Below are positions 21,232 to 30,305 of a DNA stretch of 46,149 nucleotides, one piece after another. Under the pieces are notes generated by a model. The model saw nothing but the letters and a program-made list of their open reading frames with translations. It was not told where the DNA came from and did no database searches. Origin of the DNA: an uncultured Akkermansia sp. (lineage in GTDB: Bacteria > Verrucomicrobiota > Verrucomicrobiia > Verrucomicrobiales > Akkermansiaceae). The position numbers were made by a program, and so were the translations under genes. The stretch lies in assembly GCA_947629715.1 (NCBI GenBank), contig CANRET010000010.1, forward strand, positions 1-46,149. Reading direction: 5' to 3'. Within the stretch, counting starts at the first letter, position 1. Every line of letters starts with the position of its first letter.

Positions 21232-21250
21232 TGCGTATTTGGAATACGCA
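21232..21250. repeat. Left inverted repeat of invertible segment 1
   Basis: Reads TGCGTATTTGGAATACGCA: itself an 8-bp palindrome around a TGG centre. Its 15-base core (21234-21248) is the exact reverse complement of the core of the right repeat (21390-21404), centre CCA. Homology to the second autotransporter locus begins exactly at this repeat. Confidence 0.85.
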
Positions 21251-21385
21251 TGTCAAGCCCTTATTTGATAATTTTTTCTTTTCCTTTCCAACAACTTATC
21301 AGAGACGATGGCTTCCTTTTGCAGGAAAAATTTGTTCGGTATAGTCTGATGCGACTACACATTATCAATGATTTATAAATCATCG

Positions 21386-21408
21386 GATACGTATTCCAAA
21401 TACGTATC
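21386..21408. repeat. Right inverted repeat of invertible segment 1
   Basis: A 10-bp palindrome (GATACGTATT and its complement) around a CCA centre; the core is the reverse complement of the left repeat's core. The TATCTT box starts within its right edge. Confidence 0.85.
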
Positions 21409-21484
21409 TTTTCTCCCGTGGCAGCGAAAGCAAAGATTCCAATTCGTCCGCTGCTTCATGACAAAACTCATTTTATTATACATT

Positions 21485-24400
21485 ATGAAACTCCATCTGC
21501 CTGTCATACTGTTCGCGGCTCTCATGTCCGCGATGTCTGCCCTGCCTTCCTTCGCGAAACAGGAAATTAAAGTCGATGACCAAATCATAGAAAATTGGGA
21601 CGGAAAGTTGACCCAAGACGATGAGGAATGGTTTGACGACTCAATCAATATCCGAGCTTGGAAAGAAGAGGGAGAGGAAACAAATCCGGAGGTTGTCATA
21701 GGTGATGAAGCAGGCCAGGCTCTGCAGCTGGGTGGCAATATCTCGGTGAATGTGGGGGAAGATAGCACGGTGACGGTGCATCAAGCGGGAATCGGCGTTG
21801 GGGCGCAGGGGGACAATCCTGTCAAGACAGAGATCACGGTTGATGGGGGAACGTTCAAGATGGATGGCGGAGAGCAGAGTACGCTGGGAGAAGCAAAGGT
21901 TCAGTCCAGCAAAACGGACGTTACAATTCTCGTCGAGAATGGCGGCACATTTGAAGCCGGTGAAGACACCCGCATTGGCTATTTGGGCGCAAAGTACACC
22001 GAGACTTCTCTTTCTATCACTGTGACGGGCAATGGGAGCACTTTTTCAACTGAAGGTTCCATCAGCTATATTGGGAAAGATGCAGCCGCTTGGGGAGGTC
22101 GTGCTGATCAAACTCTCACTATCCAAGTGGAAGACGGCGCCACGTTCATTTTCGGGGGAAGTTTTTTGGGAACATATGGAAGCTCAAGTTGTCAAGCTGC
22201 CGCTGATCTTAGAACTGATATTTACATTAAAGATGCGGAATTCATTTTCAAAGGGGATGGTATCATAGGCTCTGAATATCAGCAGGGTTCTATTTCCAGT
22301 AGGACGAGTCGCCATACACAAATCACGTTGCAAGGGAATGCGGTATTTGACTTGACGGAAGCGACTAGTAAGGCGCGCATTTATGGCACGTTGGTTGTGG
22401 AAGGGGGGAGCATCAAGTGCAATGCAGAAACGATTGAAGATATCCTTGGTACGAACTCGTTTGACATGCGCATTGACTCCGGGAAAGACTACGTTGGTGT
22501 GATTGATGTGGGCGGGTTACCCGGTTCCTGGCTGACCAGTGCGGATGCGGGATCTGCTGGTAATATTGTTGAGTATAGAGCAATGCGCATTAATAACGCA
22601 GGCACGACGATTACAGGCATCAAGGCAGGCACGACGCTCACTATGAGCGGTTGTGAAGTTATTTGCATTGGGTTGACAAGCGCTCGTTTCACAGATGGTG
22701 AGGCTTTTGGTGACGGCAATAGAGCTCTTTTTGAATTCCAGGGGAGAACTGGAAGGGTGAGGTTTGGTAAAGGGGGGCTCCACACGACAACATTTGTTCT
22801 CAGCGATGACATCCTCGATGTCCTTTCCAAGGAAGACGGAGATGTGGGACTCGAGATTTGGGTTACAAATGGTGAAGTTGTCAGTGGCAAGAATGATGAT
22901 TTCGAGGATATTGAAGGCATTTTCCAGATTGACGGCGGCTGGACGGTCAAAGACTGCACGGCGCAAGACGGCAAACTTACCTTAACCATCGATATGTCAA
23001 AGGTGTGGTTTGCTACCAAGCACGACGACCCGAATCACCACGGCACCTCTCATGCTGAGCTCAAGGATCTTCAGGATGCGGAGAAGGTGGTGATCGATGA
23101 GAGTACTACATTGCACGTAACGGAGGAAGGAGGTACGGTTAAGTTCCTGGAGGGCGGAAGTGATCTTTCCCTCGAAGGGAACGGCGAAGTATCCTTTGAG
23201 AATACGGATGGACTCTCATCAACGTACCGCGGCAAGCTTTCCGCTGTTGAAGATGTGGATATCCGGAAAACGGGGAAGGGAGATTTAACCCTTGCCGGCG
23301 GTATGGACGCGGCGGGCGATGTGACGATCGAAGAGGGCGAGCTCATTGTCACCGGGGAGGATAACGTCATCAGCGGTGCGCTCCGTTTCTCTGAGGATGC
23401 CGGCAAGCAGGGGACTCTGCAGGTAGATAGTGTACTCCGCTTCTTCGGAAACAGTGATCTGAGCGCCGGCAAAGGCACGATCACGGGAAGTGGCTGGCTG
23501 TATGTCGCTGAGGGAGCGAATCTGGAACTTGGAAAAGGCATAACGCTGGGGAACGAACTTTCGATGTGGGTTGATGGCAATCTCACGCTTTCTCAGAGCA
23601 CGTACAGCAGTCAGATAACTCTTACCGGTAATGGCGTTATCACGATGGGAGAGGGTTCTGATATTGGCGAGAACGTGCAGCTGGGAGAAAATATAAAGTT
23701 CCGAATCAGCGAGGACTCTGCTCAACGAGTGAATTTTTATACCGAGGATGAAGTTACTTTGCTGGATTTGAATGGTTCCCGAGAAGTGAAAGCAACAGGA
23801 GACGTTGTATTGGAAGGCAAAGGAACGTATTCGGGTTCGCTCTCATATAACAACACGGTTGCAGTACGAGGCGAATATGACCTCAGCGGCGCATCGATCA
23901 TGGGATCGTTGGACAACGGCGGAGCAGATCCTGCACAAACAGGGGCTGGCATCCTGATTTTCTCGGAAGGGAATGAAGGGACAAAAGTAACAAACGACTT
24001 GGTGCTGCGCAAGGGAGCGACCACGCGGGTCAAACTTGACTTCGGCAAGGATGACCTGTGGGAGGGAGACTCTCGAGATGTGACCGTGCTGACCGCGTCG
24101 GGCAACATCATTGTGGAGGCGGGAACCATCTTCGAGATTGAGAACCTTTCCGATGTCATCTCGGACAACCTGAGGAAAGGTGAAAAGGAAGTGTTCCTCA
24201 TGAAAGGCAAGCACGTGTTTTCCTCCGCCAGTCACTACGAAGGAGGAACAGATGGCCTCAGTGATGCAGGATCTATTGGTGGAAGCCTCGAATGCGATAC
24301 AAACGCCGAGGTGCGTCTGAGTAGCGAAATGAACTGGTTCTTCAAAAATGCTCAGATTGTGTTCCACAACAATGAAGCAGCCGTGGTAGCTTCGAGTGAA

Positions 24401-25660
24401 GAGGGAATCGCGTTGGCAGCGGAGGAGTCAGTTCCGGAAGGCCCATATATCGCGGTTCGCGTTGAGACACGCTCGGGAGAAGACATCAATAAGGTGGCGG
24501 GAAGTTCCAACGCCATAGCCGGTTCTTCCCTGCTGACGCACTACACGGAGGAGAAATTGCCCAGCGAGATTGACCCGGACGTGCGGCAGGTGATCAGTTC
24601 TCTTGGGAATGTGATCGACAGTAATTCTGCGGAAGCAAACCGCATCATGTCTGCCGTGGCGGGCAGCACGCTGACCTCACTCTCCGCCGCGCAGAGCGCC
24701 GCTCTGCGCAACCAGGAGAGTCGCGTGCGTGATCATGCCCTGCAGGCCGCACGTTTGCGCTGCCAGGGCAACGACGAGACAACGCAGCAGCAGCGTCCCT
24801 GCAAGACCACCCACGTCTGGGTGGAAGGCACGAGCTTCTTCTCCGAGCAGCACAGCCGTGGCGACGAGAGCGGCTATCGCCTCAACTCCTGGGGCGGCGC
24901 CCTGGGCATCGATGCTCAGGTGGATGCCCACTGGAGCGTGGGACTGAGCCTCGCCGCCAACTACGGCGACTTGGAGGCGCGCGCCGCCGACTACGCCAAG
25001 GGCGACTTGGACAGCTACTACGTGAGTGCATGGAGTCAGGCGAAGAACGGCCGCTGGGGCAACACGCTGCTCGCCACGGTGGGCACGAATGAGGGAGACC
25101 TCAGGCGCACGGTGAACTACGGAGGCGGCAGCTACACGGCCACGAGCAGCACGAGCGGCAGCAGCCTTGGTGCGATGTGGGAAGTTACGTATGACCTCTA
25201 CCCGGTGAAGGACAACAAGAGCAACATCATTCAACCGCTCTTCAACGTGGCTGTGCAGCACACGAGCATGGACGGCTTCAGCGAGAAGAATGCGGGGAGC
25301 GTGGGTCTCACGACGGAGAAGCAGACGCGCGACACGATGACGCTGGCATTGGGCTTGCGTTGGCTGGCGGCGATTGACTCCGCGAAGGCGGTCAACCGCA
25401 CGGTGACGACCGAGCTGCACGCGAATGTGGCGCAGGACATGGGCGACCGCCGGAGCATGGCGAACGTGGCGCTGCTAGCTGACCCGAACTACACGCAGAG
25501 CGTGTACGGGGCACGAGCAGGCAGCACGGCGTTCCAATTCGGGGCGGGCGTGAACGTGCCTGTGACGCCGAACTCGCAGCTTTATGTGAACGCGGGCGGC
25601 GAGCTGCGCAGCCACGCGAACGCATGGAACGCCGCGCTGGGCGTTCGGATGGGTTTCTGA
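21485..25660 (+). CDS. Autotransporter adhesin-like protein 1 (type V secretion)
   Basis: 1391 residues. Signal peptide 1-24 (MKLHLPVILFAALMSAMSAL then PSFA). A long Gly/Asp/Glu-rich passenger follows, with beta-helix-type strands and passenger-associated repeats (e.g. TGKGDLTLAGGMDAAGDV near residue 596). A linker (about 1057-1107) contains the shared SLSAAQSAALRNQESRVRD. A 284-residue autotransporter beta-barrel (1108-1391) ends in Phe, as expected for BAM recognition. The passenger would be displayed outside the outer membrane. The frame is open upstream to 21368, but that extension reads through the inverted repeat; the ATG at 21485 gives a proper signal peptide. The barrel is about 96 percent identical to that of the next gene while the passengers differ widely. 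Ligand unknown. Expression is probably set by the invertible segment upstream. Confidence 0.9.
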   Translation: MKLHLPVILFAALMSAMSALPSFAKQEIKVDDQIIENWDGKLTQDDEEWFDDSINIRAWKEEGEETNPEVVIGDEAGQALQLGGNISVNVGEDSTVTVHQAGIGVGAQGDNPVKTEITVDGGTFKMDGGEQSTLGEAKVQSSKTDVTILVENGGTFEAGEDTRIGYLGAKYTETSLSITVTGNGSTFSTEGSISYIGKDAAAWGGRADQTLTIQVEDGATFIFGGSFLGTYGSSSCQAAADLRTDIYIKDAEFIFKGDGIIGSEYQQGSISSRTSRHTQITLQGNAVFDLTEATSKARIYGTLVVEGGSIKCNAETIEDILGTNSFDMRIDSGKDYVGVIDVGGLPGSWLTSADAGSAGNIVEYRAMRINNAGTTITGIKAGTTLTMSGCEVICIGLTSARFTDGEAFGDGNRALFEFQGRTGRVRFGKGGLHTTTFVLSDDILDVLSKEDGDVGLEIWVTNGEVVSGKNDDFEDIEGIFQIDGGWTVKDCTAQDGKLTLTIDMSKVWFATKHDDPNHHGTSHAELKDLQDAEKVVIDESTTLHVTEEGGTVKFLEGGSDLSLEGNGEVSFENTDGLSSTYRGKLSAVEDVDIRKTGKGDLTLAGGMDAAGDVTIEEGELIVTGEDNVISGALRFSEDAGKQGTLQVDSVLRFFGNSDLSAGKGTITGSGWLYVAEGANLELGKGITLGNELSMWVDGNLTLSQSTYSSQITLTGNGVITMGEGSDIGENVQLGENIKFRISEDSAQRVNFYTEDEVTLLDLNGSREVKATGDVVLEGKGTYSGSLSYNNTVAVRGEYDLSGASIMGSLDNGGADPAQTGAGILIFSEGNEGTKVTNDLVLRKGATTRVKLDFGKDDLWEGDSRDVTVLTASGNIIVEAGTIFEIENLSDVISDNLRKGEKEVFLMKGKHVFSSASHYEGGTDGLSDAGSIGGSLECDTNAEVRLSSEMNWFFKNAQIVFHNNEAAVVASSEEGIALAAEESVPEGPYIAVRVETRSGEDINKVAGSSNAIAGSSLLTHYTEEKLPSEIDPDVRQVISSLGNVIDSNSAEANRIMSAVAGSTLTSLSAAQSAALRNQESRVRDHALQAARLRCQGNDETTQQQRPCKTTHVWVEGTSFFSEQHSRGDESGYRLNSWGGALGIDAQVDAHWSVGLSLAANYGDLEARAADYAKGDLDSYYVSAWSQAKNGRWGNTLLATVGTNEGDLRRTVNYGGGSYTATSSTSGSSLGAMWEVTYDLYPVKDNKSNIIQPLFNVAVQHTSMDGFSEKNAGSVGLTTEKQTRDTMTLALGLRWLAAIDSAKAVNRTVTTELHANVAQDMGDRRSMANVALLADPNYTQSVYGARAGSTAFQFGAGVNVPVTPNSQLYVNAGGELRSHANAWNAALGVRMGF

Positions 25661-25711
25661 GGAGGACCAACGCGTTCTTCTCAAAAGGAACAAAACAATA
25701 GGTAAATGTAG
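24653..25711 (+). repeat. Conserved 3' module (linker, barrel, 3' UTR), copy 1
   Basis: About 1.05 kb is nearly identical to 29249-30305. It begins abruptly at the GCCGTGGC of the linker and ends in ...TGTAG about 50 bases after the stop codon, after which the two loci have different terminators. Scattered silent changes and about ten amino-acid differences in 284 barrel residues separate the copies. This points to recent duplication or gene conversion. Confidence 0.9.
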
Positions 25712-25712
25712 T

Positions 25713-25752
25713 GCCGCTCGTCGGGGAAACTCGGCGAGCGGCGCAGTATTTT
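25713..25752 (+). terminator. Terminator after autotransporter 1
   Basis: GCCGCTCG (25713-25720) pairs with CGAGCGGC (25735-25742); the stem is followed by a weak T-rich stretch (GCAGTATTTT). It insulates the second invertible segment from read-through. Confidence 0.65.
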
Positions 25753-25788: not shown

Positions 25789-25807
25789 TGCGTATTTATA
25801 ATACGTA
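25789..25807. repeat. Left inverted repeat of invertible segment 2
   Basis: Reads TGCGTATTTATAATACGTA. The 15-base core (25791-25805) has a TAT centre, unlike TGG in copy 1. It is the exact reverse complement of the right core here (25947-25961, centre ATA). Confidence 0.85.
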
Positions 25808-25943
25808 TGTCAAGCCCTTATTTGATAATTTTTTCTTTTTCTTTCCAACAACTTATCAGAGACGATAGCTCGCCTTTTGCAGAAAAATTTGTTCGGGATA
25901 GTCTGACGCGACTACACATTATCAACGATTTATAAATCATTGC

Positions 25944-25964
25944 ATACGTATTATAAATACGTAT
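25944..25964. repeat. Right inverted repeat of invertible segment 2
   Basis: A 9-bp palindrome (ATACGTATT and its complement) around an ATA centre, matching the left repeat of this locus but not those of locus 1. Confidence 0.85.
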
Positions 25965-26041
25965 CCTTTCTGCGGTGCAGCGGTAACAAAGATTTCGATT
26001 CGTCCGTTATCGCTCCGAACAAAGAACTATTCTATTTTACC

Positions 26042-29000
26042 ATGAAACTCCATTTACCGATCACATTGTTCACCGCCCTCATGGCGGTGATGGCGACTCT
26101 GCCCACCGCGTGGGCAAAAATAACCGTTAAAGAAAATATCTCAGAAAGTAAGCCTGAAGGAGACCCTGTTGAGATTACGGATGGTACTTTTGAAGGTCAA
26201 TTGGGAAAGGATTCCTCGATCAAGATTGAAAAAGAAAATGAGGAAGACGGAGATACGAGTCTGACGTTTAAGGGGGAAACTACAGATAAGGCCAGGAACG
26301 GTATAAGACGCATAGACATTGATGTCCTGCCCGAATGTTCATTCACTCTGGCCGAGGGAGGGGAACTTGGTGTCAGTGTCAGAAATGACTTCGGCAGCAC
26401 CAACACATACATAAGACTCCAAGGCGGCTCTTTTACTGTAGAAGAAGGAGCCAAGCTAGGCGGAGTGCACAGCGGAGTGGTTCTTCTGGCAAGAGTCGAT
26501 GTTCAGATGCATGGAGGCGAATTCATTGTGAATGGGAGCGTGAATGACGCTCAGGGAGGAGTAAAAAATAGCGCGCCTTCTTCTCTTAATGTCAACGTAC
26601 AGGATGGAGGCAAGTTCATTATAGGAGAAAATGCAACGGTTGGCACGACATACGATGTCAATACGACCCTTGGAGGATGGGAATACGACAAAATATGCGG
26701 CACAACCACGAGTATACTCATTAAGGATACGAGTTCTTTTGAAATGAAGGGGGGGAAGTTAGGGGTTCCCCTCTCGGCCGATACTGACAAGGGATCTGGT
26801 CACACCAACGTAAGTATAAGGTTAAGCGGTGATGCTAAAGCGATCATTTGGGGCGGAGAGATAGGAGGAAAAGGTGTTATTGGTGGCACGAACGAAGTTG
26901 CAGAAATTACCCTGTTGGAAAATGCGACACTGGAGTTCAAAGACACTGCGAACGAGAAAACTTCCCAGAATGTCACCATAAAAATGCAGGGGGGGAGGTT
27001 AGTAGGTGGAGCGAACTTTTATGGGGAAGTGGAAATTAGCGCTCTGGACACCTTTGATATGGGCGGACTTGATGCATCGAGGATAAAAAAATTGGAACTT
27101 AAATCCGCCGGGGCCACTCTGAAGAATCTCAAGGAGGGCTCTACATTAAATGCGGATGCGATGGCTGTGAATTCCACCACCATCATCATGGTAGGGAGTA
27201 AGAGCTCGAAGTTGGTTACTGGGGAAAGCAGCGGCGATGTCCTGCCCGATGGGAAAGAATGGCTCATCGGTTTCCAAGGGAACGGGGGCAACGTACAACT
27301 GGGGAAAAAGGAGATTAAGCTTGACTTCGATGCCAGAGATGGGTTACTCAGCGAACTATTGGATGATGAAGGAGACGTAAGCTTTGAGGTTTTCTTCTCC
27401 AATGCGCAGCTCATGGGGATGGAGGAAGGCGAAAATCTCTCAAAGTATTTCAGCGTTGGAGCCGGTTGGGGTGTAGATGTGAAAAATGTGACGATCACCA
27501 ATGAAGGCTGTGTGCTAACCCTTAGCGGCAACATAAGCAAATCGGTGTGGGTCGCTTCAAAGCAAGAACCGGCAGAGTCTTATCGCGGATACTCCGTAGA
27601 AAAATTTGACCGAGTGGTTATCGATAAGGATACAACGATTGAATTTCCGTCGACCATTAAGCAACTTTGCGGATCCGGCAACTTGCACCTTACCGGTAAT
27701 GGATCGGCTGAGCTTGAGAACAGGAGTGATGCTTTTCATCATGGTGATACGACCTTCTACGGAGACATCACGGTGGCCGAGGAGGGAAACCTCTCCGTTA
27801 AGAAGACAGGGGATTCCACTCTCACGCTGGCAGGCAACCTGAAGATACTCAGGGATCGAGGTTCACTCAACGTGAATGAAGGCATGCTCATATTGAAGGG
27901 CGATGACAACGTTGTAAAAAGCGGAATTAACGTGGGGCAAAGGGATTCACACGGTGTGCTGGAAGTAGAAGGGAATTTAAACACCTCAAGTATCCTTGTG
28001 AACAGCTATGATGGCAACATGCTTGTTATTGGCAAGAGTGGACACGTTACGGTCAACGAAACAATTACCTCCCTTTCAGAGTCCTGCAGTGTGCAGGTGG
28101 ACGGAGAACTCATACTATTGGGCGATCAGGACATGACGGGGAAAAACAAACCGATATTCTCCGGAACCGGCATTATTTCGATAGGCGATGGGGAGAGTGA
28201 AACAGCTCTGATCATTGATAAAGATAACTTCATCGCTGGTTCCGAAGTCAGCTTGAACGTGGCAAAGGGAGCCTCACTGAGCGTCACGGGGGATAGCTTC
28301 TCCGGCAACATCATGGGCGAGGGTAAGGTCTCCACGGAGGGAACGGTTACACTCACGGGAGATGGCTCCCTGACGGGGGAATATTCCGGCACTTTCGTTG
28401 CGGACCGTTCGGGACGCATTTTCGGTGGAAACAATCCGAATGCCGCGATCGAAGCACAAAACGGGGCCACCGTGAAACTCGAAGCGGGTTCGACTTTCAA
28501 GTCTCTGGATGCCGGGGAGGGCGAGGTCACAGGAAGCAACACCTACACCTTTACCGACAAAGATGCTGCGGGGAGCACGACCAGACATTTCTCCGGCGAC
28601 ATCGTGCTGCGCAGCGGCAACGAGTATGATATGGAGCTGGATCTGAGCAACCCGGCGCTTTGGGAGGGGAGTGGCCAGCATGAGGAAACTCTCATGCTGG
28701 ATACCCAGAAGAACATCATCATCGAAGATGGAGCCACCATCGTCTTGAACAGCATCGATAATTTGCTTGCGAAGCAAGGAGATCTCACGGGAGTTGTGCT
28801 GATGCATGGCACAGGCATCTTCCATGAGGACTATTCACAGTACAAAGTCGAAGAGGAGAGCGGTCATAATCAAGATAAATCCTTGGGGGCCGTGAATGGA
28901 GTCAACGTCAAGTTGGGAGGCATCCTCGACCTGCTCTACGAGAGAGCCGAGCTGCGGATTGTAGAAGCAGGCGATGGAGCAAGTGCGGCGAACGAACTCA

Positions 29001-30256
29001 ACGCACTCGCCGAAGTTGAGCCCAGGGCCGGTAAGACTTACGATACCATCGTCAATCTCTATCACCGCACACAGAGCAAGTTTGCTCCATACGCAACAAG
29101 CGCCAACTCCACCGCCGGTTCCAACCTGCTGTGGTTTGAGGCCGACCAGAAGGGCGTCACTATGGACGAAAGCGTGCTTGCCGTGATGAGCAGTCTGCAA
29201 CAAATGGCGGATGCAGGCGACGCGGCAGGCGTGCGCAAGGCGCTCGCGGCCGTGGCTGGCAGCACACTGACCTCACTCTCCGCCGCGCAGAGCGCGGCTC
29301 TGCGCAACCAGGAGAGTCGCGTGCGCGACCACGCCCTGCAGGCCGCACGTTTGCGCTGCCAGGGCAACGACGAGACAACGCAGCAGCAGCGTCCCTGCAA
29401 GACCACTCACGTTTGGGTGGAAGGCACGAGCTTCTTCTCCGAGCAGCACAGCCGTGGCGACGAGAGCGGCTATCGCCTCAACAGCTGGGGAGGGGCCGTG
29501 GGTCTCGATGCGCAGGTGGACGCGCACTGGAGCGTTGGACTGAGCCTTGCCGCCAACTACGGCGACCTGGAGGCGCGCGCCGCCGACTACGCCAAGGGCG
29601 ACCTGGACAGCTACTACGTGAGCGCATGGAGTCAGGCAAAGAACGGTCGCTGGGGCAACACCCTGCTCGCCACGGTGGGCACGAATGAGGGAGACCTCAG
29701 GCGCACGGTGAACTACGGAAGCGGCAGCTACACGGCCACGAGCAGCACGAGCGGCAGCAGCCTTGGCGCGATGTGGGAAGTTACGTATGATCTCTACCCC
29801 GTGAAGGACAACAAGAGCAACATCATTCAACCGCTCTTCAACGTGGCCGTGCAGCACACGAGCATGGACGGCTTCAGCGAGAAGAATGCGGGGGGCGTGG
29901 GACTCACGACGGAGAAGCAGACGCGCGACACGATGACGCTGGCGCTGGGCTTGCGTTGGCTGGCGGCGATTGAGAGCGGCAAGGCAGCCAATCGCACGGT
30001 GACGACCGAGCTGCACGCGAATGTGGCGCAGGACATGGGCGACCGCCGGAGTGAGGCGAACGTGGCGCTGCTGGCCAACCCGAACTACACGCAGAGCGTG
30101 TACGGGGCGCGCGCAGGCAGCACGGCGTTCCAGTTCGGAGCGGGAGTGAACGTGCCGGTGACGGCGAACTCGCAGCTTTATGTGAACGCGGGCGGCGAAC
30201 TGCGCAGCCACGCGAACGCATGGAACGCCGCGCTGGGCGTCCGGATGGGCTTCTGA
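26042..30256 (+). CDS. Autotransporter adhesin-like protein 2 (type V secretion)
   Basis: 1404 residues, built like its neighbour. Signal peptide about 1-25 (MKLHLPITLFTALMAVMATL then PTAWA). A ~1000-residue passenger carries acidic, glycine-rich beta-strand repeats (e.g. TGDSTLTLAGNLKILRDRGS near residue 589, a passenger-associated repeat). The linker with two cysteines (RLRCQGN...QQRPCK) is shared with protein 1. A 284-residue beta-barrel (1121-1404) ends GVRMGF. The passenger shares the overall plan with protein 1 but little sequence, so the pair offers two alternative surface structures. The ATG at 26042 is chosen over an upstream open frame starting at 25940 that crosses the inverted repeat. 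Function is likely adhesion or surface shielding; the ligand is unknown. Confidence 0.9.
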   Translation: MKLHLPITLFTALMAVMATLPTAWAKITVKENISESKPEGDPVEITDGTFEGQLGKDSSIKIEKENEEDGDTSLTFKGETTDKARNGIRRIDIDVLPECSFTLAEGGELGVSVRNDFGSTNTYIRLQGGSFTVEEGAKLGGVHSGVVLLARVDVQMHGGEFIVNGSVNDAQGGVKNSAPSSLNVNVQDGGKFIIGENATVGTTYDVNTTLGGWEYDKICGTTTSILIKDTSSFEMKGGKLGVPLSADTDKGSGHTNVSIRLSGDAKAIIWGGEIGGKGVIGGTNEVAEITLLENATLEFKDTANEKTSQNVTIKMQGGRLVGGANFYGEVEISALDTFDMGGLDASRIKKLELKSAGATLKNLKEGSTLNADAMAVNSTTIIMVGSKSSKLVTGESSGDVLPDGKEWLIGFQGNGGNVQLGKKEIKLDFDARDGLLSELLDDEGDVSFEVFFSNAQLMGMEEGENLSKYFSVGAGWGVDVKNVTITNEGCVLTLSGNISKSVWVASKQEPAESYRGYSVEKFDRVVIDKDTTIEFPSTIKQLCGSGNLHLTGNGSAELENRSDAFHHGDTTFYGDITVAEEGNLSVKKTGDSTLTLAGNLKILRDRGSLNVNEGMLILKGDDNVVKSGINVGQRDSHGVLEVEGNLNTSSILVNSYDGNMLVIGKSGHVTVNETITSLSESCSVQVDGELILLGDQDMTGKNKPIFSGTGIISIGDGESETALIIDKDNFIAGSEVSLNVAKGASLSVTGDSFSGNIMGEGKVSTEGTVTLTGDGSLTGEYSGTFVADRSGRIFGGNNPNAAIEAQNGATVKLEAGSTFKSLDAGEGEVTGSNTYTFTDKDAAGSTTRHFSGDIVLRSGNEYDMELDLSNPALWEGSGQHEETLMLDTQKNIIIEDGATIVLNSIDNLLAKQGDLTGVVLMHGTGIFHEDYSQYKVEEESGHNQDKSLGAVNGVNVKLGGILDLLYERAELRIVEAGDGASAANELNALAEVEPRAGKTYDTIVNLYHRTQSKFAPYATSANSTAGSNLLWFEADQKGVTMDESVLAVMSSLQQMADAGDAAGVRKALAAVAGSTLTSLSAAQSAALRNQESRVRDHALQAARLRCQGNDETTQQQRPCKTTHVWVEGTSFFSEQHSRGDESGYRLNSWGGAVGLDAQVDAHWSVGLSLAANYGDLEARAADYAKGDLDSYYVSAWSQAKNGRWGNTLLATVGTNEGDLRRTVNYGSGSYTATSSTSGSSLGAMWEVTYDLYPVKDNKSNIIQPLFNVAVQHTSMDGFSEKNAGGVGLTTEKQTRDTMTLALGLRWLAAIESGKAANRTVTTELHANVAQDMGDRRSEANVALLANPNYTQSVYGARAGSTAFQFGAGVNVPVTANSQLYVNAGGELRSHANAWNAALGVRMGF

Positions 30257-30305
30257 GGAGGATCAACGCGTTCTTCTCAAAAGGAGTAAACAACAGGTAA
30301 TGTAG
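29249..30305 (+). repeat. Conserved 3' module (linker, barrel, 3' UTR), copy 2
   Basis: Direct repeat of 24653-25711 with few differences; see that entry. Divergence resumes at 30306. Confidence 0.9.

Follow-up and report, generated by a model that had tools for sequence, protein, structure and literature searches.

Multiple invertible promoters per genome, served in trans by a few recombinases of the serine class, are known from the Mpi-type system of Bacteroides fragilis. At the junctions of insertion sequence circles recombination joins a -35 and a -10 box at the right spacing and thereby creates a promoter. For the invertons of Akkermansia muciniphila the inverted-repeat motif CGGATT..AATCCG is said to go back to Jiang et al. 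2019. One study on this species describes inverton group 138 and reports a promoter-like motif for the group (PMC11892184). In the UPEC UpaE switch tyrosine recombinases invert a promoter element before a surface autotransporter gene (PMC6083910).

The DNA analyzed here, called the window in the following, is a stretch of 46,149 bp which represents contig C10 of a 2.2-Mb Akkermansia genome (116 contigs, 97.6% complete). Judged by their sequence, its two switches can be assigned to the inverton class already described from Akkermansia, with CGNATT-NNN-AATNCG-type cores approximately 150–175 bp apart. As in B. fragilis, many promoter switches per genome would be served in trans, but the recombinase class and the repeat sequence differ from the serine-type system there, and no serine resolvase was found here. 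The promoters of insertion sequence circles arise at transposon circle junctions, whereas we are dealing with a reversible chromosomal switch. With the A. muciniphila invertons the switches share the genus, a variable centre of 3 bp enclosed by 6-bp arms, a distance of approximately 155–175 bp, and autotransporter-domain and other surface genes as targets. The arms, however, are mostly CGTATT/AATACG here. In the UpaE switch the element is turned over together with its complete promoter (PMC6083910), whereas only the -35 half would move in the Akkermansia loci; no homology is claimed. Switches of this kind are known; the present case is a variant with a split promoter, and its crossover rule was cleanly tested. 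The rule for the pairing of centres, the division of the promoter with the recombination site as spacer, and the insulation test were not found in the available parts of PMC11892184 and PMC13343947; Jiang et al. 2019 may already cover part of them. Literature searches for invertible promoters of the split type, and for overlap or heteroduplex in papers on invertons, gave nothing.

Table 1. Features of the two switch loci and adjoining genes, with positions in the window.
Feature	Position	Strand	Remarks
Locus 1, left site core	21234–21248	none	CGTATT-TGG-AATACG
Locus 1, invertible segment	21249–21389	none	141 bp, OFF orientation
Locus 1, -35 box	21251–21256	-	TTGACA
Locus 1, right site core	21390–21404	none	CGTATT-CCA-AATACG
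Locus 1, fixed -10-like box	21405–21410	+	TATCTT
Autotransporter gene 1	21485–25660	+	1391 aa, PF03797
Intrinsic terminator-like hairpin	25711–25744	+	between autotransporter gene 1 and switch 2
Locus 2, left recombination site core	25791–25805	none	CGTATT-TAT-AATACG
Locus 2, invertible segment	25806–25946	none	141 bp, assembled OFF
Locus 2, -35 box	25808–25813	-	TTGACA, inside segment, pointing away from gene
Locus 2, right recombination site core	25947–25961	none	CGTATT-ATA-AATACG, exact reverse complement of left core
Locus 2, fixed -10-like box	25962–25967	+	TATCCT, outside right site; 17 bp from TTGACA once inverted, right site as spacer
Autotransporter gene 2	26042–30256	+	1404 aa, signal peptide MKLHLPITLFTALMA..., PF03797 beta-domain

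Locus 1 lies 4.56 kb upstream of locus 2, and the geometry of both loci is identical with cores 156 bp apart (Table 1). The exact reverse-complement match at locus 2 extends over 19 bp (25791–25809 versus 25943–25961), and the next outer base differs (G/A). A first-pass annotation of this DNA had described the locus 2 cores as exact reverse complements with the centre TAT/ATA instead of TGG/CCA, and had placed TTGACA 17 bp from the fixed TATCCT after inversion. The coordinates and the 19-bp match bear out the former statement, an in silico flip of locus 2 the latter. In the window the 21-bp pattern of the sites matched at exactly these four places with three or fewer mismatches, and it had no match in 100 dinucleotide shuffles. 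Both loci are paralogues with 83% identity over 315 bp. Covariation of the centres at these two loci alone was dropped as proof, since paralogues may match through the copying of cassettes. The term "compensatory change" used in the annotation is correct, but copying could explain the match of two loci, and the decisive evidence for covariation is the genus-wide comparison beyond them.

The nearly palindromic arms made it possible to choose pairs of sites by arms and distance and to ignore the centre. Collection of all loci from the genus yielded 152 pairs. The centres were reverse-complementary in 145 of the 152 arm-selected pairs and a direct copy in none, whereas permutation of the right centres gave 6.8 matches on average and 18 at most. 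Each of the seven exceptions involves a spurious chance match of an arm, and several of these overlap or adjoin a real site. The 64 loci that five additional genomes yielded on both strands matched without exception (counted by eye). Altogether 28 of 32 possible centre classes are in use. The check suggested by the annotation, namely whether the centres of one locus always agree and those of different loci vary, consequently turned out positive, and its proposal that the two sites of a locus interact gains support from the genus-wide reverse-complementary centres. Tested over about 200 natural site pairs, the rule is that the crossover centre varies freely and never differs between partners. 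The CGTATT pattern was present in 13 and the CGGATT start in 23 of the 76 genomes of the genus. The CGGATT-start pattern seems to be confined to the genus, as it was found in these 23 genomes of genus g1 and in one single match elsewhere among 260 genomes in the family.

Identity between partner sites was complete from -3 to +3 (at the centre by selection), high on the inner arm and lowest at the outer arm positions -4/-5. This full identity points to a 7-bp overlap, most likely TTNNNAA around the variable centre, and supports a position of the 3-bp centre inside the exchanged overlap. In this way the centre rule may locate the overlap of an uncharacterized recombinase family from sequence alone. 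The inner arms (+4, +5) match the partner more often than the outer arms (-4, -5), an asymmetry for which a symmetric 7-bp overlap offers no explanation.

At least 30 changes of centre class were observed among homologous cassettes, in a set in which all pairs had matched centres, and both sides had changed every time. Since the centres change among homologous loops, their match is not merely inherited. If the switch had simply been copied as a unit, the centres would match by descent without continuing exchange. The paralogy of locus 1 and locus 2, the TGG centre common to the switches on contigs C3 and C4, and many same-centre paralogues in the relative G008 would agree with copying. Yet no mismatched pair was left behind by the numerous centre changes within groups of homologous cassettes, outer arm positions of the very same sites differ between partners, and the orientation differs between relatives. 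Copying as the only cause is therefore already disfavoured, and we regard it as very unlikely.

The explanation which we consider highly probable as a whole is a phase switch operated by a tyrosine recombinase, with a split promoter, centres matched by pairing and homogenization, and differences between loci that largely reflect drift and duplication. The recombinase would pair the left and the right site, cut at the edges of the overlap (most likely TTNNNAA) and exchange strands, whereby approximately 141 bp would be inverted. Exchange would require or favour pairing of the overlaps and so result in matched centres. After an exchange between unequal centres, the top strand of the chromosome would carry one centre at both sites and the bottom strand the other one, and replication would then provide each daughter with two identical centres. 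This strand bookkeeping was derived by hand and the products were written out. A point mutation in one site would be erased or copied to the partner within one flip, and the centres would drift locus by locus. The pairing requirement and homogenization both predict matched pairs, but only homogenization frees a change of centre from the need for two independent mutations. It thus suggests a route for site change that needs no two lucky mutations, and it fits the many observed centre changes. The match of the centres is best explained as a by-product of flipping itself, and it may allow orthologous switches to be checked for activity. Some tyrosine recombinases, namely Tn1549/Tn916 Int and CTnDOT, tolerate unequal overlaps (PMC5871717), and a strict requirement for identity therefore cannot be assumed. 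The annotation had stated that conservative recombinases need identical cores; the enzymes just named are exceptions to this.

The in silico flip gave the junctions TTGACA-17 bp-TATCCT for locus 2 and TTGACA-17 bp-TATCTT for locus 1. No sigma-70-like promoter was detected on either strand between positions 25640 and 26060 as assembled. The invertible segment would carry the -35 box only, and one orientation would assemble a promoter with a 17-bp spacer before the autotransporter gene while the other orientation would yield none. Loci of this type were selected with an ORF of 500 aa or more in front of one end and none in front of the other; 11 of them have CGTATT on both sides and three have one CGTTTT or AAAACG arm. 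This rule, combined with longer flanks, replaced an earlier gene assignment by the longest ORF on short flanks, which had been noisy. In the resulting 14 loci, which come from three genomes (G000, G008, G042) and thus provide a lead and not a population estimate, and which were chosen by a rule set after the first, weak result was known, TAnnnT occurred exactly 17 bp from the place where TTGACA would land in 14/14 gene-facing outer flanks and in 0/14 far ends. Inside the far ends an exact TTGACA was present in 13 of the 14 loci and TTGACG in the remaining one. All 14 long-ORF loci were assembled in the OFF state. Outside the CGTATT-type loci, in those of the A. muciniphila type, the -10 side of the split promoter was less clear with the assignment by longest ORF and short flanks. 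The sequence pattern is that of a -35 box that would move, a -10 box that would stay and a recombination site that would serve as the 17-bp promoter spacer. Such a split promoter would explain the fixed length of the site as well as an OFF state without an outward promoter on the other side.

Evidence for inversion was obtained from relatives. The loop on contig C53 of this genome and that of G020/L126 are 140/142 identical but inverted relative to each other, while their flanks are collinear and do not differ over the first 60 bp on the right; here the two orientations were seen between species only, at a locus outside the window. Further inverted pairs between relatives are L089/L099, L182/L193 and L186/L187, within the CGAATT/CGGATT types. 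For A. muciniphila BAA-835 one study reports sequencing reads in both orientations for this inverton class, including invertons near autotransporter-domain genes, and one inverton near two autotransporter-domain genes whose orientation varied with time (PMC11892184). At cps1 the capsule state follows the orientation of the inverton (PMC13343947). We infer that the switches of the present strain flip and thereby affect transcription.

The nearly palindromic sites, each of which overlaps a promoter element, could also be read as operators for a DNA-binding regulator that acts through the palindromic arms, with no inversion involved. This is hardly credible, as the centres covary in the reverse-complement sense, loops are inverted between relatives while their flanks are collinear, and tyrosine recombinase genes adjoin many of the sites. 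In addition, inverton reads have been published for the same class (PMC11892184, PMC13343947).

The genome encodes 15 tyrosine recombinases of family PF00589, namely two XerC/XerD-like proteins, 12 members of one family, from which the candidate enzymes for the switches come, and one other protein. The twelve-member family occurs in 75 of the 76 genomes of the genus. A search for serine resolvases (PF00239) gave no match in this 97.6% complete genome, and a serine invertase of the Hin/Gin/Mpi type was therefore rejected as the enzyme. Relatives of the recombinases with 84–93% identity were found in rabbit-gut (Lapin) MAGs, nearly all of which are labelled Akkermansia. A search by sequence for a solved structure matching the recombinase found none. 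All 79 family members share the motif W-x-P-D-V-L/M-R-H (including L039:4662-5630, which is of the C53 type, and L042:1077-2009). Both arginines, the lysine, the second histidine and the tyrosine of the catalytic site are conserved, while the histidine of the HxxR motif is replaced by aspartate in all 79 members, which leaves the catalytic set R-K-H-R-H-Y incomplete in the family. Despite this substitution the proteins remain PF00589 members by profile. The HxxR histidine varies in other subgroups of tyrosine recombinases as well (PMC8138268), and recombinase activity is assumed for the family.

A pair of sites lies directly upstream of many genes of the recombinase family, and the arms differ by recombinase type: CGTATT/AATACG, as at the window loci, for the C53 type and CGAATT/AATCCG for the six-copy type. 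The window itself has no recombinase gene, which leaves only an enzyme that acts in trans. By the match of the arms, the C53 recombinase would be the best candidate for the window loci; an objection is that close homologues of C53 are missing from related species in which such loci are numerous. The six recombinase genes are approximately 90% identical, and several carry a 170-bp switch that ends 6–8 bp before the start codon (L043:6112-6299, L047:2958-3145, L042:10231-10417). On the opposite side of these 170-bp switches lies a surface gene or another gene. Two recombinase copies (C12 near 2040 and C51 near 7371) retain only the site on the recombinase side.

According to the first-pass annotation, the paired change of centres would be kept in order to stop recombination between neighbouring switches and thus to spare the intervening gene from deletion or inversion. 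The centres of locus 1 and locus 2 do differ, as do those of other pairs less than approximately 6 kb apart (C15, G008 C20, G042 C2, G017, G059, G054 C20). However, random sharing amounts to approximately 7.5%, so neighbours that all differ are to be expected anyway. Furthermore, same-centre pairs are frequent within genomes, with 7/66 here, 32/120 in G008 and 14/105 in G004, where pooled frequencies predict 5.0, 9.0 and 7.8, respectively. In four of the seven genomes sharing was above the level expected at random from the pooled frequencies, strongly so in G008 alone, and the other three were not significantly below it; none of the seven genomes tested thus showed a significant deficit of shared centres. 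In this genome the locus 1 centre TGG/CCA recurs in the autotransporter switches on C3 and C4, and TGA/TCA is common to three loci. The relative G008 has seven loci with GCA/TGC and five with CCA/TGG. A neighbouring pair 10.9 kb apart in G004 shares AGA, whereas the G062 pair with corresponding loops has the centres GCA and AGA. Finally, a direct repeat of 1,028 bp with 94% identity in the beta-domains of both autotransporter genes (24653–25680 and 29249–30276) exposes the intervening gene to homologous recombination whatever the centre, so the centre alone cannot protect it. With frequent sharing and neighbours that differ no more than by chance, the proposed purpose is unsupported, and we judge selection for insulation unlikely.

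In the preferred explanation, drift and duplication would be the main reasons why loci end up with the same or with different centres, and less cross-talk between some loci would be a side effect. Reduced cross-talk between locus 1 and locus 2 is plausible, and selection is not needed for it. The tempting story is thereby corrected, as locus-specific centres need not exist in order to separate loci. More tentatively, and with some doubt on our side, the 3-bp centre could be seen as a drifting address: flips would homogenize it within a locus, the genome would gain several orthogonal classes served by the same enzymes, and loci with the same centre could still exchange promoters or rearrange with one another.

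Gene 1 and gene 2 encode passengers that have diverged from each other, but the two proteins are nearly identical in their C-terminal quarter. The 94% identical C-terminal repeat beside far more divergent passengers creates a situation in which gene conversion or deletion between the two genes may take place. For gene 1 the ORF list gives position 21368 as the start, which lies inside the switch; with the in-frame ATG at 21485 as its start, the protein has a signal peptide that resembles the one of gene 2. The site pattern of the two window loci marks at least twelve switches in this genome. Their targets are autotransporters (the two on C10 and those on C3 and C4; PF03797, for C4 by sequence similarity), outer-membrane beta-barrels (two switches on C15), a GT25 glycosyltransferase adjoining a recombinase (C53), a band-7 protein (C80) and the type I methylase hsdM (C87). 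The switches on C18, C103 and C12 are linked to recombinases. At L041:2693-2868 a switch with the centres TGA/TCA precedes an hsdM-like gene for a type I methylase by 25 bp, and methylation itself may thus be phase-variable. Contigs C102, C103 and C63 end within approximately 120 bp of a site; mixed orientations or repeated cassettes that disrupt the assembly would have this effect. At G042:C4:69238-69857 a TGG/CCA pair is spaced by approximately 600 bp instead of 155 bp, possibly a switch that carries an insertion.
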